Below are positions 1,345 to 8,213 of a DNA stretch of 8,213 nt, in pieces (the stretch's first letter is position 1; each line of letters opens with the position of its first letter). Origin of the DNA: Microcaldota archaeon (GTDB lineage: Archaea; Micrarchaeota; Micrarchaeia; Norongarragalinales; UBA8480). The notes under the pieces were generated by a model that saw nothing but the letters and a program-made list of their open reading frames with translations, was not told the DNA's origin and made no database searches. The position numbers and the translations under genes are program-made. The stretch is from positions 1 through 8,213 of the forward strand of contig JAHFHC010000032.1 of NCBI GenBank assembly GCA_023247085.1, given 5' to 3'.

Positions 1345-1380
1345 GCCTGAAAAACCTTATAGCGTTTACGTTTTTCCCTC

Positions 1381-1388
1381 TTTTAAAC
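1381..1388 (-). promoter_or_regulatory. TATA-like box for the coiled-coil gene at 1344
   Basis: On the minus strand this reads GGTTTAAAAG, centred about 40 bases upstream of the ATG at 1344. With the usual archaeal spacing the transcript would start near 1358, leaving a leader of about 13 bases that contains AAGGT. This is motif inspection only. Confidence 0.4.
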
Positions 1389-1401
1389 CTCGCTTTTTGC
1401 A

Positions 1402-1426
1402 TTTACTATAGTCGGCTTTTTTATTG
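1402..1426 (+). promoter_or_regulatory. Possible promoter region of the HerA-like gene
   Basis: Two overlapping TATA-like candidates precede the ATG at 1450: TTTACTATA (1402-1410) and TTTTTTATTG (1417-1426). The second lies about 28 bases from the ATG and would give a leaderless mRNA, which fits the absence of a Shine-Dalgarno sequence before this gene. Which one is used cannot be decided. Confidence 0.25.
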
Positions 1427-1449
1427 TCAAACTTCGTAATACAAACTAT

Positions 1450-2808
1450 ATGCTTGAACTCCCGCAGTGGAAAAAACTAGTTGACGTACAAAACGGAGAC
1501 CACCCGTTTATGTTATTCGAAAAAGAAAATACTGTGTTGATGTTACTTGCAGAAAAACGACTTGACAAAACAATTGGATACACTTGCTCGGCTTGCAAGC
1601 CAATTCTTCTAGAAGGCGATGCAGCTAAAATTGAGTCACTTGACATTCCTGAAGAATTACCCGTTGTAAAAAAATCCGCCGGCACTGGCTCCAAAGCTTT
1701 TCTAATAACCTCCACTAATTCAAGTTACGTGCAGCCATCTCAAAAGTCAGTAATCATCGCTAGTAGACAACACGAAAAACATTTAGCTTCAATTCACCAA
1801 GAAGTAACTCAACTCGCAACTGATGTAACGCTAGTTGAACCGCCAACTGGACAAAACCCATTGCTAACTGATACCTCTCTTTTATTTTCTTATTTGCACT
1901 CCTTAAAAACAACCCAAAAACACAACCTGCACCCCGCCCAAAGCTTGATTGGCAAAGATAGAAACGGCGACGCGGTTTACTGTGCTGTACCTTCACTTAA
2001 AAAAGGAGTTGTGGTTGGCGGAACGCGACAACAGCGATTACATGTACTGCATTTGTTAACTGAAGAGTTATTGCAACAGAACACAAACGTTGCCATTCTA
2101 GACTCAACTAATAGCTTCCTTGGCTTGTCCAAACCAAATAATTTAGAAGTAGCGGATTACGCTGCTTTTTCCCTGCCGGGTCTTTCAACCGGATTTTCAA
2201 TGCGCGAATTAACTCCCGGCAAAAACGCGTTTGTTTCGCCCATTCATTTTTCTGCTGATTTTTTCGTCTCCGCTTTTGGTTTAAAAGATTCTGAACTCGA
2301 AGCCTATTTTGCCAAAGCAATAGAAGCCGGCGGAATTGACAAAGTAAACGAAGCTAAAGCCAACCAGTTCACTCAACTTCAACTCGCTAGAATAGCTAAA
2401 TTAATTCACTTGTCACTCCAAGGCATTTTTTCGCACACTAGCAGTGGTGAAAGTTCATCTCAACTCGGAAAAGCTATTCACGTGAATCTCTCTAAATGCA
2501 CTGAAGAAGCAGCTGCGTTTTTCACAATTGGATTCCTTGAACAAATAGACAAAACTAAACCGCTCTTACTAGTTTTTGAACAAGATGATAAAAAAGTACG
2601 GCCGTTGCTTGAACTAGCTGCTTCAAAATTCACTGGTTCAAACATTTCTATTTTATGCCACGCTGAACACGAAAAAGATGTACCATTTTACAAAACAGCA
2701 GATTTCCAAATTGAAATGCTTGCAAATGACGCGGTAATTACACAAAAAGGTAATGCGCCACAACGAGTAAAAATAAGACCAACTTACTCAGCATGCAGCG
2801 AAAATTAG
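1450..2808 (+). CDS. HerA/DUF87-like P-loop ATPase homologue with degenerate catalytic motifs
   Basis: This is a 452-residue protein. Residues 1-130 have no recognised domain. From about 165 the pattern follows the HerA/VirB4/FtsK-type core: IGKDRNGDAVYCAVPSLKKG, then VVVGGTRQQRLHVLHLLTEE (187-206) where the Walker A P-loop should be, then NVAILDSTNSFLGL (213-226), the equivalent of the usual DxxGEYxGL strand. Later come a strand like the usual DLS element (HVNLSKC, 344-350), a Walker B-position strand PLLLVFEQDD (371-380), and the SNISILCHAE strand where active enzymes have a TQ sensor. The Walker A lysine and Ser/Thr are absent (GGTRQQRL instead of GxTGSGKT), and the Walker B DE is replaced by FEQ. 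Family members are hexameric DNA translocases; this copy probably does not hydrolyse ATP and may be structural or regulatory. A T6 run just after the stop (2811-2816) may terminate transcription. Assignment rests on reading motifs by eye. Confidence 0.75.
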   Translation: MLELPQWKKLVDVQNGDHPFMLFEKENTVLMLLAEKRLDKTIGYTCSACKPILLEGDAAKIESLDIPEELPVVKKSAGTGSKAFLITSTNSSYVQPSQKSVIIASRQHEKHLASIHQEVTQLATDVTLVEPPTGQNPLLTDTSLLFSYLHSLKTTQKHNLHPAQSLIGKDRNGDAVYCAVPSLKKGVVVGGTRQQRLHVLHLLTEELLQQNTNVAILDSTNSFLGLSKPNNLEVADYAAFSLPGLSTGFSMRELTPGKNAFVSPIHFSADFFVSAFGLKDSELEAYFAKAIEAGGIDKVNEAKANQFTQLQLARIAKLIHLSLQGIFSHTSSGESSSQLGKAIHVNLSKCTEEAAAFFTIGFLEQIDKTKPLLLVFEQDDKKVRPLLELAASKFTGSNISILCHAEHEKDVPFYKTADFQIEMLANDAVITQKGNAPQRVKIRPTYSACSEN

Positions 2809-3336: not shown

Positions 3337-3762
3337 TTACTCTTGTTTTTCTTTCTTTGCAGCTGTTTTTTTCTTCATTTCTTCAAGCTTTTGTTCCATT
3401 CGCTCATCTACCATTTCATTAATTTGTCTTACAGTTACAAATTCAAGCGGGTTAATCAAGCCAATTGTGTACTTCAAATTGTACAATTCGGTTTTAATAG
3501 CTTCATTTTCCGTCATTGCTTTTTCAAACTTATCGCGTAAATTTCCAATGTCTTGGCTTTGTTCAACGTCTACATGTGTAGAATTCCCGTCACGGTTATC
3601 TTCTAATTTCTTTAACCGTTCAGTGAGCTTGAACAAGGAATTAGCAATAGTTAAGTTCTGGCCTTCTAAACCCTTGATTTTTTCAGCTAGTAAATTTATT
3701 TTTGAGTCAACGCTTTTAACTTCAGCTCTAATTGCGTCAACTGTGCGTACTTCTGCGGGCAT
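3337..3762 (-). CDS. Coiled-coil protein of unknown function, divergent from polB
   Basis: This is a 141-residue protein made almost entirely of heptad-like helix. Residues about 6-56 (VDAIRAEVKSVDSKINLLAE onward) and 72-100 are predicted coiled coils separated by a polar break (NRDGNSTHVDVEQSQ). After the second coil comes a non-coil turn, LINPLEFVTVRQINEMVDER (102-121), followed by a Lys/Glu-rich tail (KKKTAAKKEKQE). The NPLEF turn between helices is the most family-specific part visible; it is loosely reminiscent of coiled-coil archaellum accessory proteins, but that link is weak. The gene reads away from polB with 64 bases between start codons. A TTTAAA at 3787-3792 is at the right distance for a leaderless mRNA. 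Its stop lies 34 bases before the next minus-strand gene, suggesting a two-gene unit. No role is assigned. Confidence 0.78.
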   Translation of the reverse strand: MPAEVRTVDAIRAEVKSVDSKINLLAEKIKGLEGQNLTIANSLFKLTERLKKLEDNRDGNSTHVDVEQSQDIGNLRDKFEKAMTENEAIKTELYNLKYTIGLINPLEFVTVRQINEMVDERMEQKLEEMKKKTAAKKEKQE

Positions 3763-3826: not shown

Positions 3827-6232
3827 ATGTCAAAAGCTTTTTTACTTCACATTGACTACGCCGCTACAAAAGGGGCAGTTTTGCGTCTAGTGCTAAAACG
3901 TCAAGATAACGGAAAAGTGTTCAGGTTATTTGACAATTCAGCCAAACCCTACTTTTACTTAGTTCCAAATAGCGATGATGAAAACGTAGAGGCAAAAGTG
4001 CTTAAAATTAAAACTTTTTATCAAGGTACCGAAGCCAAGCCAGTGTCAATTGAAAAAGTGAAGAAAAAACTAAACGGCAAGGAGATAATTGTACTAAAAG
4101 TAATTTGCAGTCACCCTGGTCACGTACCCTTAATTGCTTCTGAGTCAAAACAATTTGGCCAGCCTTTTGAACACCAAATCCCGTTTATTTTGCGTTATTT
4201 GCTTGACCGAAAATTAACTCCAATGGATTTAGTTGAAGTTAAGTATAACGGAAACTTAGTTGAATCAATAGCTCCAGTAAATTCAGTTGAATTACCGCCA
4301 TTGCGAGTGCTTGCATTTGACATTGAAACTTATAATAAAAATGTAAAAAGCGACCCAAAGCGAGACCCGTGCTTAATGATAAGCTATGCAACTGCAAAAC
4401 GCTCCGGCGTTTTAACGTACGGTAAAAAATTTACTGAAAAATACGTTGAAGTATTAGCAAACGAAAAGAAGATGCTTGAAAGGTTTTGCGAAATCGTAAG
4501 GGAAAACCATGCAGACGTAATTGCAACTTACAATGGCGACGAATTTGACTTACCTTTCTTAACCGAACGCGCCAAAATGCTAAAAGCAGACTTCAGGCTA
4601 GGTAGAGATAAAGCGTTGCCTAAATCACGCAAAAAAGGAATTAGATTCGCTAGCTCTATAGGTGGAAGAATACACTTTGACGCTTATCCCGTAATCGCTT
4701 TTCTTAATTTCATAGGCGCATTTAAACTAGAGCGAATGCGTTTACAAGACGCTGCACTTGCAATTACTGGCAAAAACTTAAAAGCCGATATTGAAAAAAA
4801 AGATATCCACAAAATGTGGGATCACGGCACACAAAAAGAACTTGACTATCTTGCTCATTATAGCATAAACGATTCAATTGCGTGCCTTGCAATTGTTCAA
4901 AACGTGCTGCCACTGCAAATTGAACTTGCAAAACTAACTGGCAATTTAATGTTTGATTCCTCGCGATTAAGTGCAATGCCACTTGTTGAGCCGTTCATAA
5001 TGAAAAAATCGCTAGCAAGAGGAGAATTAATCCCAAGCAAACCCTCTTACAGTGAAGTGTCAGGCCGCGACCAAGCGCCAGTTGAAGGTGCATTTGTAAA
5101 AATTCCAGATCCGGGTGTATATGAAAAAATTGCGGTGCTTGACTTTAAGTCACTTTATCCTTCAATTATAATATCGCATAATGTTGGATCTGACTCTTAC
5201 AATTGCCAATGTTGTACGCAAGAGGGTTTTGTTTCTCCACAAGGCCACCGTTTCTGTAAAAAACACAAGAGTATAATTGCGGATACTTTGGAAGATATAC
5301 TTGATTCTCGTTTTGCAATACAAAAAACAATGAAAACAATGGCGAGCAAAGAAAGCGAGGAGTACAAGCAACTCTATGCCCGCCAATGGTCGCTTAAAAT
5401 TCTCGCAAACAGCGTTTATGGCTTAACACTTAACCCGCGATTTAGGTGGTACACGCGCCAAGGCGGCGAAGCAACAACTGCATGGGCAAGACAATTTATT
5501 CAAGAAGTTAACAAAAAATCTGAAGAAGCTAAATTTACTGTTTTATACAATGACACAGACTCGATTTTTTTACAGTATGAACATGAAAAAGATGTTTTGA
5601 AATTTCGCGAGAAGATCAACGAATCTCTTCCAGCGCGCATGGAACTTGAACTTGAAGATTTTTATCCTAGGGGTATATTTGTTGCAAAGAAAGGCGATAG
5701 TAAAGGGGGTGCAAGGAAGAAATATGCGTTGATAAACCGAGAAGGAAAAATTAAAATCCGCGGTTTTGAACTTGTGCGTAGGGATTGGAGTAGAATAGCT
5801 CGGCGAACACAACGAAGCGTATTAGAAATTTTGCTTAAAGAAGGAAAAGTAGATGAAGCGGTTACGCTTGTGCGTAACGTTGTTGCTGAGTTACAAAGCG
5901 GCAAAGTGCCACTAGACGATCTAGTAATAGTAACGCAGTTGCGCAAAAAACCAAGTGAATACGAAATCAAAAGCCCCGAAGTAAGCGCATACGAAAAAGC
6001 AATTAAAGCTGGTTTACAAGTGCCAGAAGCCGTTGTATCATATGTAGTAACTTCTAAAGGCAAAACAATTTCAGAAAAAGCCTATGTAAGAGAAATGGCA
6101 AAAGACTACGATGCTAATTACTATCTAAACCATCAAATCCTGCCTTCAGTGCTAAAAATACTCAGCGAATTAGGAATAACTGAAGACGATTTAACAACAA
6201 ACTCAAAACAACACACTCTAGGAAAATGGTAA
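3827..6232 (+). CDS. polB: Family B DNA polymerase (replicative, with 3'-5' exonuclease)
   Basis: This is a complete 801-residue archaeal family B polymerase, slightly longer than the roughly 775 residues of Pyrococcus enzymes. The N-terminal domain keeps residues that in Pyrococcus form the uracil read-ahead pocket (Y11 in HIDY, P41 in KPYFY, V100 in HPGHVPLI). Exonuclease motifs are intact: DIE 165-167, YNGDEFD with D241, and YSIND with Y345 and D349. Polymerase motif A is LDFKSLYPSII (D439), motif B KILANSVYG (524-532), motif C YNDTDS (D576, D578). A KKY segment follows at 631-633 and RGFELVRRDWS at 645-655. The C-terminus ends in QHTLGKW, a PIP box matching the QxxLxxW pattern through which archaeal PolB binds PCNA. 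No intein is present. A Cys/His cluster (C460, C462, C463, C477, H480) lies after motif A, near cysteines present in euryarchaeal homologues. It synthesises chromosomal DNA with proofreading. ATG 3827 aligns with the start of known family members. Confidence 0.97.
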   Translation: MSKAFLLHIDYAATKGAVLRLVLKRQDNGKVFRLFDNSAKPYFYLVPNSDDENVEAKVLKIKTFYQGTEAKPVSIEKVKKKLNGKEIIVLKVICSHPGHVPLIASESKQFGQPFEHQIPFILRYLLDRKLTPMDLVEVKYNGNLVESIAPVNSVELPPLRVLAFDIETYNKNVKSDPKRDPCLMISYATAKRSGVLTYGKKFTEKYVEVLANEKKMLERFCEIVRENHADVIATYNGDEFDLPFLTERAKMLKADFRLGRDKALPKSRKKGIRFASSIGGRIHFDAYPVIAFLNFIGAFKLERMRLQDAALAITGKNLKADIEKKDIHKMWDHGTQKELDYLAHYSINDSIACLAIVQNVLPLQIELAKLTGNLMFDSSRLSAMPLVEPFIMKKSLARGELIPSKPSYSEVSGRDQAPVEGAFVKIPDPGVYEKIAVLDFKSLYPSIIISHNVGSDSYNCQCCTQEGFVSPQGHRFCKKHKSIIADTLEDILDSRFAIQKTMKTMASKESEEYKQLYARQWSLKILANSVYGLTLNPRFRWYTRQGGEATTAWARQFIQEVNKKSEEAKFTVLYNDTDSIFLQYEHEKDVLKFREKINESLPARMELELEDFYPRGIFVAKKGDSKGGARKKYALINREGKIKIRGFELVRRDWSRIARRTQRSVLEILLKEGKVDEAVTLVRNVVAELQSGKVPLDDLVIVTQLRKKPSEYEIKSPEVSAYEKAIKAGLQVPEAVVSYVVTSKGKTISEKAYVREMAKDYDANYYLNHQILPSVLKILSELGITEDDLTTNSKQHTLGKW

Positions 6233-7527: not shown

Positions 7528-7661
7528 CGAGCCCTGAGGGATTCGAACCCTCGGCCTATTGGTGTCTCCCGTTTTTCACTGGATCGAAGCTTCGATTTCC
7601 CAGCGAAATAAAATTTTTTCGACCGGAACCAATCGCTCTATCCAGGCTGAGCTAAGGGCCC
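7528..7661 (-). tRNA. tRNA-Arg(CCG), intron-containing
   Basis: Read on the minus strand, the acceptor stem GGGCCCT pairs with AGGGCTC (one G-U pair), followed by discriminator G; CCA is not encoded. The D arm is GCTC-AGCCTGGATA-GAGC. The anticodon stem ATTGG/CCAAT is split by the intron. The loop TTCCGG-A gives anticodon CCG (bases 7624-7626), reading the arginine codon CGG. The variable region is AGGCC and the T arm is GAGGG-TTCGAAT-CCCTC. The mature length is 75 bases after removal of a 59-base intron at the canonical 37/38 position. A20, C35 and G73 agree with arginine identity. A possible TATA-like sequence (minus strand TATTAAAAAAA, 7687-7697) lies about 30 bases upstream. Confidence 0.95.
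7564..7622 (-). other. Archaeal tRNA intron (37/38) with bulge-helix-bulge splice motif
   Basis: The 59-base intron lies between G37 and A38. A canonical bulge-helix-bulge can be drawn: tRNA bases 32-35 (UUCC) pair with intron GGAG near its 3' end; the 5' bulge is G36-G37 followed by intron U1; the 3' bulge is intron AC followed by A38; and the inner helix starts with intron C2-G3 against CG. This is the substrate of the archaeal splicing endonuclease. The intron body carries a strong hairpin: a perfect 14-base palindrome (7583-7596) flanked by CTGG/CCAG (7579-7582 and 7600-7603) with a three-base bulge. It is too short for a homing endonuclease. Confidence 0.88.
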
Positions 7662-7738: not shown

Positions 7739-8213
7739 TTAGTTTCTTCGCAGTGAAGCGTAATAAGCCACTAGTCCAATTAACAAAATGGCTAGTGCAG
7801 CTATTAAAGCAGTTTCCACGTTCACTTCGCCGTTGCCTAGTGTAAATAAGCCAGTTAATCCAATTCCGCCATTTGCTCCGCTTCCAGTGTTTAATGTTAT
7901 TAGTGGGATTCCTGGTATTGTTACGCCTGGAATTGTTCCAAGCATTGGGGCAGCTAGTTGTTGTGACTGGGTTTCAAGTGACTCGAGTATTTGAATTGTT
8001 ACTGTGTTGCTAACGCTGGAGTTTACTACTGTTGCACTAACTTGAACTGAGCCTGGCTCGCTTCCAGTTAATACGCCGTTTGAATCAATTGTTGCATAGT
8101 AAGTGTTTGAAACATTCCAGTTTACTTCTGGAGTTGATATCTTGTTTCCAAATGCGTCAAATGCGGTTATTACAAACGCAATGTGATCGCCTGGTCTAAT
8201 TGATGCTGTGCTT
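7739..8213 (-). CDS. C-terminal part of a membrane-anchored surface protein with Ig-like repeat (5' end outside window)
   Basis: An open frame runs from the right edge (first full codon ends at 8212) to TAA at 7739-7741, giving 156 residues. The first part is a bacterial-Ig/invasin-like repeat: GDHIAFVITAFDAFGNKIST, WNVSN, ATIDSNGVLTGSEPGSVQV, and SATVVNSSVSNTVTIQI. The DAFGN and TIDSNGVLT elements are typical of such domains. A Gly/Pro/Ile-rich linker follows (GTIPGVTIPGIPLITLNTGS), then a transmembrane helix (ALIAALAILLIGLVAYYA) and a short basic end (SLRRN). This orientation anchors the protein with the Ig repeats outside the cell, as in archaeal S-layer-like or adhesin proteins. The true start lies beyond the window; the internal ATG at 7945 gives only a fragment and is not the start. 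The tRNA-Arg lies downstream on the same strand. Confidence 0.85.
   Translation of the reverse strand, partial: STASIRPGDHIAFVITAFDAFGNKISTPEVNWNVSNTYYATIDSNGVLTGSEPGSVQVSATVVNSSVSNTVTIQILESLETQSQQLAAPMLGTIPGVTIPGIPLITLNTGSGANGGIGLTGLFTLGNGEVNVETALIAALAILLIGLVAYYASLRRN

Follow-up and report, generated by a model that had tools for sequence, protein, structure and literature searches.

Pseudo-ATPases as such are well known, and degenerate ATPase domains are found inside secretion motors; in EccC and EssC, some of the ATPase domains are naturally degenerate. The closest match to the protein described here is HerA, the HAS domain of which contacts and docks NurA (PMC12977600). In Sulfolobus HerA, the P-loop mutation K154A led to the loss of nucleotide binding and disturbed dsDNA binding (PMC5715905). 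The gene compared with these systems lies in a window of 8,213 nucleotides, i.e., the whole stretch of DNA that was analyzed, located on contig C12 of a Micrarchaeota genome of 0.89 Mb and 36 contigs. It encodes a HerA-like protein lacking the catalytic motifs, hereafter pseudo-HerA, and the features of the locus are listed in Table 1. The frame, intact as the original prediction had held, starts with ATG and is open throughout, and all the segments quoted in that prediction were present within it. Single-protein searches of Pfam, NCBIfam, PADLOC, PHROGs, and PDB sequences with pseudo-HerA returned no credible match. In the case of Pfam DUF87 (PF01935), the window copy gave no match, and 2 of the 21 family members matched weakly, with a best E of 0.07. 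As pseudo-HerA is invisible to Pfam and NCBIfam, its annotation would read hypothetical.

Table 1. Features of the pseudo-HerA locus, in window coordinates
Feature	Position	Strand	Basis
c3: 147 aa, UBA-like start, amphipathic C-terminal helix	901..1344	-	divergent neighbor of pseudo-HerA
Divergent intergenic region c3/pseudo-HerA, candidate shared promoter region	1345..1449	.	sequence; same arrangement in relatives
Pseudo-HerA gene	1450..2808	+	intact ORF, 452 aa; orthologue in 26/29 order genomes
N-terminal domain, residues 1-155	1450..1914	+	AlphaFold2 pLDDT 86.7 when modeled alone
Predicted HerA-like RecA core, helical insertion, C-terminal strands (residues 160-452)	1927..2805	+	Z 21.3 to 4d2i; hhalign E 6e-9
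Degenerate Walker A, G190-GTRQQR196-L197	2017..2040	+	aligned with GMSGSGKS of HerA; conservation in homologues
D218 after the next core strand, equal to D201 of the HerA alignment	2101..2103	+	in 24/25 homologues; invariant in HerA
Four helices (269-275, 284-292, 296-301, 306-322), R314 invariant	2254..2415	+	model secondary structure and conservation; place of HerA helical bundle
Degenerate Walker B, LLLVFEQD (372-379)	2563..2586	+	HerA alignment, conservation
HAEHE (404-408) where HerA has SQRP	2659..2673	+	alignment with HerA; REGRK segment preceding it missing
RVKIRPTYS near the C-terminus, invariant R443, counterpart of HerA invariant Arg R469	2764..2790	+	alignment with HerA, conservation
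c1: 141 aa coiled coil, INPLEFVT motif	3337..3762	-	27/29 order genomes
Family B DNA polymerase (PolB), divergent from c1	3827..6232	+	PF00136 E 4.9e-53

Two further features were observed at the far end of the window. A tRNA gene on the minus strand (7528-7661; Rfam, 50.5 bits) was not found by ARAGORN, and its length of 134 bases suggests the presence of an intron of approximately 60 bases. The same strand carries, at 7739-8212, the C-terminal part of what is probably a surface protein, in which an Ig-like Big_2 domain and a hydrophobic segment at the C-terminus were observed.

The fold of the larger, C-terminal part was evaluated at the levels of profile and structure. When the family alignment of 21 sequences was compared with that of 15 intact HerAs from the same order using hhalign, a single colinear alignment of 294 columns was obtained with an E of 6.2e-9, while the best of 40 column-shuffled controls gave 0.042 and the reversed control gave 0.63. 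The AlphaFold2 model derived from the family alignment showed a mean pLDDT of 80.5, and its top PDB fold was HerA (Foldseek E 1.5e-10). On structural comparison with Sulfolobus HerA (4d2i) using VIA-align, residues 161-452 of the model gave a Z of 21.3 with an rmsd of 3.0 over 263 aligned residues, and the scores were lower for VirB4 (18.6), TrwB (13.9), and EccC/EssC (approximately 13.5). The family profile touched EssC/EccC weakly (E 0.12), and its next best matches in the genomes were genuine HerA-type ATPases in which Walker A was intact (E 1e-8 to 1e-5; G003:C4, G021:C49, and G011:C65). The model is that of a monomer, in which a brace across a neighboring subunit would not be visible; its helices and C-terminal strand align with HerA. 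Computation thus showed a HerA-type fold for residues 160-452, as predicted from the model and profiles, at a core identity to HerA of only about 14-19%. The order of segments had been read beforehand as that of the HerA/DUF87/VirB4 core, and this reading held against the shuffled controls as well as in the predicted structure.

The catalytic motifs were then read from the alignment with HerA. At the Walker A site, the Lys was replaced by Arg196, a conserved K-to-R change, and the Ser/Thr was replaced by Leu, which agrees with and refines the prediction of a GGTRQQRL without Lys or Ser/Thr. Among the 25 homologues covering the site, G190 was invariant and R196 was found in 22, and GxxxxGK[ST] was found at this place in none. 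In Walker B (LLLVF-E377-Q378-D379), E or D was present at 377 in 19 of 25 homologues while 378 was variable, the alignment here being uncertain by one residue, and the catalytic Glu pair of HerA was not conserved among the homologues. As a correction to the earlier statement that Walker B lacks DE, one acidic residue is left at 377. The SQRP and REGRK motifs were absent from pseudo-HerA in the same alignment. The retained positions, namely, G190, E205, D218, R314, F327, and R443, are structural. By computation on the aligned sequences, the motifs expected for ATP binding and hydrolysis were shown to be lost family-wide; the loss was common to all homologues and was not peculiar to the window copy. 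As the single K154A change ends nucleotide binding in Sulfolobus HerA, the loss of ATPase function in pseudo-HerA can be safely inferred from these alignments.

The N-terminal domain consists of a beta-rich part followed by a long helix (98-122), and its best-conserved family positions are W7, G43, K75, D141, and P142, the last of which is Thr in the window copy. Its model had no Foldseek match in the PDB below E 0.001, and the best VIA Z was 7.2, which leaves the domain unassigned. As this value was within background, resemblances to YbjN, to type III chaperones, and to similar proteins were dropped. The hhalign alignment with HerA started only at residue 157, and the fold list of the N-terminal model contained no HAS domain, which excludes nothing. 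By these computations, the N-terminal part of pseudo-HerA appears to differ from that of HerA.

Orthologues were found in 26 of the 29 genomes of one Micrarchaeota order, to which the window belongs, including all 8 genomes of >90% completeness, and none were found elsewhere among the 301 phylum genomes searched. Beyond the order, just one of these 301 genomes gave a match better than E 1e-10 (G137:C1); this match was rejected as an orthologue, being an ATPase whose P-loop is intact (GGSTGTGKT, IDEAH). Weaker matches outside the order (G108:C44 and G039:C4) were read and were likewise ATPases with intact P-loops. A degenerate-pattern scan of the genome contigs derived from the single protein gave no matches. 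With a four-sequence alignment as the query, homologous loci were found in the public Candidatus Micrarchaeota records MNVG01000016.1, JACCLL010000085.1, CAINOH010000024.1, and MNVH01000031.1.

Selection on the gene was estimated as dN/dS (NG86); in more distant pairs, dS is at or close to saturation. The values were 0.055-0.10 for L019/L024 (86% identical), 0.10 for L006/L009, 0.13 for L021/L022, and 0.16 for the window copy against G001, and no stop codon was found in any homologous frame. Pseudo-HerA is under strong purifying selection, as shown by this computation. As dN/dS in the closest pairs is low (approximately 0.05-0.16) and retention is order-wide, the gene is old and functional, and the motif loss is older than the diversification of the order. 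The original prediction of a retained pseudo-ATPase was borne out on both counts: homologues share the same degenerate motifs, and purifying rather than relaxed selection was seen in close pairs. Neither a missing match to the HerA/FtsK class nor homologues with intact Walker motifs beside a relaxed window copy, either of which was to speak against that prediction, was observed.

Two observations on related ATPases in these genomes are added here. A HerA-like protein with an intact GRKGSGKS (L058:878-2272 and L099:1459-2349) resembles pseudo-HerA around the P-loop and may represent the active parent type. Relatives also contain giant open frames (3,271 to 12,373 codons), near 135400-135657 of G015:C12, 35800 of G015:C14, 122700 of G012:C5, 142300 of G007:C17, and 8900 of G029:C6 (loci L104, L131, L132, L133, and L074). 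The family match on G029:C6 sits inside such a frame. In the two frames scanned with Pfam (L131 and L132), a DUF87 HerA/FtsK-type ATPase domain with an intact P-loop was found toward the C-terminus of the portion read.

The neighboring genes c1 and c3 showed nearly the same distribution. c3 was present in exactly the 26 genomes with pseudo-HerA, divergently adjacent to it in 17, and was found nowhere else in the class sample. c1 was present in those 26 genomes and in G022, as a convergent gene close to pseudo-HerA in 12; outside the order, just two weak coil matches to it were obtained, and the sample held no credible relatives of c1 or c3 there. As the genes are adjacent and the assemblies are incomplete, the fact that the same three genomes lack both pseudo-HerA and c3 is not independent evidence, while the restriction of c1, c3, and pseudo-HerA to the order and their common locus are independent evidence. 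The linkage of c1 and c3 to the pseudo-HerA gene was not seen in every family. c1 and PolB form a divergent pair in 12 loci across three families, and c3 lies 0.7-5 kb from MCM in family f7. In relatives, frames that look intein-bearing were seen for PolB (approximately 1,200 codons) and, once, for MCM (1,676 codons), at L064:9379-13041, L122:36-3614, and L124:3-5030.

The archaellum profile FlaC_arch (FlaC/ArlC) was matched weakly by 6 of 7 c1 members (best E 0.021), as by many coiled coils, and no genome of the order had a FlaC_arch match over the cut-off. On comparison with anti-phage HerA systems, the PADLOC models gave no match for three family members, and just weak coil-type matches for the neighbors. 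A run of small hydrophobic membrane proteins was observed at 2-247 of the window and, upstream of c3, as clusters 4, 5, 6, and 15 in relatives (L062, L067, L070, and L128); its synteny extends across several families of the order, and Pfam matched none of the proteins scanned. c3 was linked with the proteins of these clusters in several families, with cluster 4 also in f7.

On this evidence, we favor, at a probability of about 0.55, the reading that pseudo-HerA is an old derivative of the HerA/FtsK translocase class which, catalytically dead and fixed in one Micrarchaeota order, acts as a non-catalytic scaffold or adaptor. Pseudo-HerA would no longer translocate DNA, while its RecA-like body with the helical insertion and C-terminal strand would keep a HerA-type surface for self-association or docking. 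The N-terminal domain would hold partners, most likely c1 and c3, both coiled-coil proteins. A location close to replication or chromosome handling is weakly indicated by the linkage between c1 and PolB and, in one family, that between c3 and MCM. A more specific version, which we offer only tentatively, is a three-protein Micrarchaeota assembly of the dead HerA-fold body, c1, and c3 on the replication machinery (PolB, MCM) or in chromosome handling, in which the former motor would be a static clamp or scaffold. A DNA-binding ring is not favored by the mild acidity of the protein (pI of 6.4 in the window copy and 5.3-5.9 in other members), and the disturbed dsDNA binding of the Sulfolobus HerA K154A mutant is to be counted on the same side. 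The membrane-protein neighbors of c3 are equally compatible with a membrane role. The finding points to a limited set of co-distributed genes, open to testing, in tiny archaea that are uncultivated.

The strongest rival explanation, albeit an unlikely one, follows from these membrane-protein neighbors: the dead HerA/VirB4/EccC-type domain and the small membrane proteins flanking c3 would form a membrane machine with pseudo-HerA as its adaptor. The linkage of c3 to those proteins in several families, the places of VirB4 and EccC after HerA in the fold ranking, and the weak touch of the family profile to EssC/EccC are consistent with such a machine. However, no transmembrane segment was present in the pseudo-HerA model, no secretion core gene was recognized among the neighbors scanned, and in f7 and g11 the pseudo-HerA gene lies away from these membrane genes. 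Somewhat less probable still is a sensor without hydrolysis, in which a nucleotide or another anionic ligand would be bound via the conserved G190...R196 loop. The conservation of this loop and the large retention of D218 and of the acid at 377 would fit a sensor, but of the P-loop residues, the second Gly, the Lys, and the Ser/Thr have each been lost, and the Arg is missing in three homologues.

The original prediction had also proposed a structural or regulatory partnership with an active HerA hexamer. In this genome, an intact, active HerA is encoded on a different contig (C35), approximately 20 bp downstream of nurA, and DUF87 was matched in 21 of the 29 order genomes; together with the retained HerA-type helical insertion and C-terminal Arg, this would allow a mixed ring with pseudo-HerA as a regulatory or structural subunit. 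However, the pseudo-HerA gene was not paired with nurA and was never linked to herA-nurA in the loci seen, and the HAS domain was not detectable. Moreover, DUF87 HerA and NurA were both undetected in three carriers of pseudo-HerA, namely, G010 (90% complete) and G026 (71%), which belong to one genus (g7), and G028. An obligate HerA partnership is therefore unlikely, although assembly gaps could explain some of these cases, and the low core identity makes a shared pseudo-HerA/HerA interface doubtful. Accordingly, the proposed partnership was not supported, and we consider a mixed ring improbable. A decaying pseudogene, to which the lost catalytic motifs might point, was rejected with near certainty given the order-wide retention, the unbroken homologous frames, and dN/dS far below 1.

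The scaffold or adaptor reading can be set against the known systems. To our knowledge, a catalytically dead HerA that is free-standing, present across an order, and apparently fitted with another N-terminal domain has no precedent, and no inactive HerA from Micrarchaeota was found in a search of open literature, which leaves out most subscription journals. The ATPase domains of EccC/EssC in type VII secretion, which are FtsK-class, belong to the same broad class, but there a single polypeptide also carries further ATPase domains and a membrane anchor, whereas pseudo-HerA is free-standing with an unrelated N-terminal part. The coupling ATPases VirB4 and TrwB share the fold class with lower scores than HerA, and no conjugation gene was found among the proteins scanned from the pseudo-HerA locus. 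Unlike HerA, pseudo-HerA lacks the Walker A Lys/Ser, the conserved Glu pair, SQRP, REGRK, and a detectable HAS barrel, is not linked to NurA, and lies below Pfam detection. What it shares with HerA (PF01935; Sulfolobus 4d2i and Thermococcus 9x1m) is the RecA-like core, the order of elements, helices where HerA has its four-helix bundle, and the C-terminal strand with its invariant Arg.
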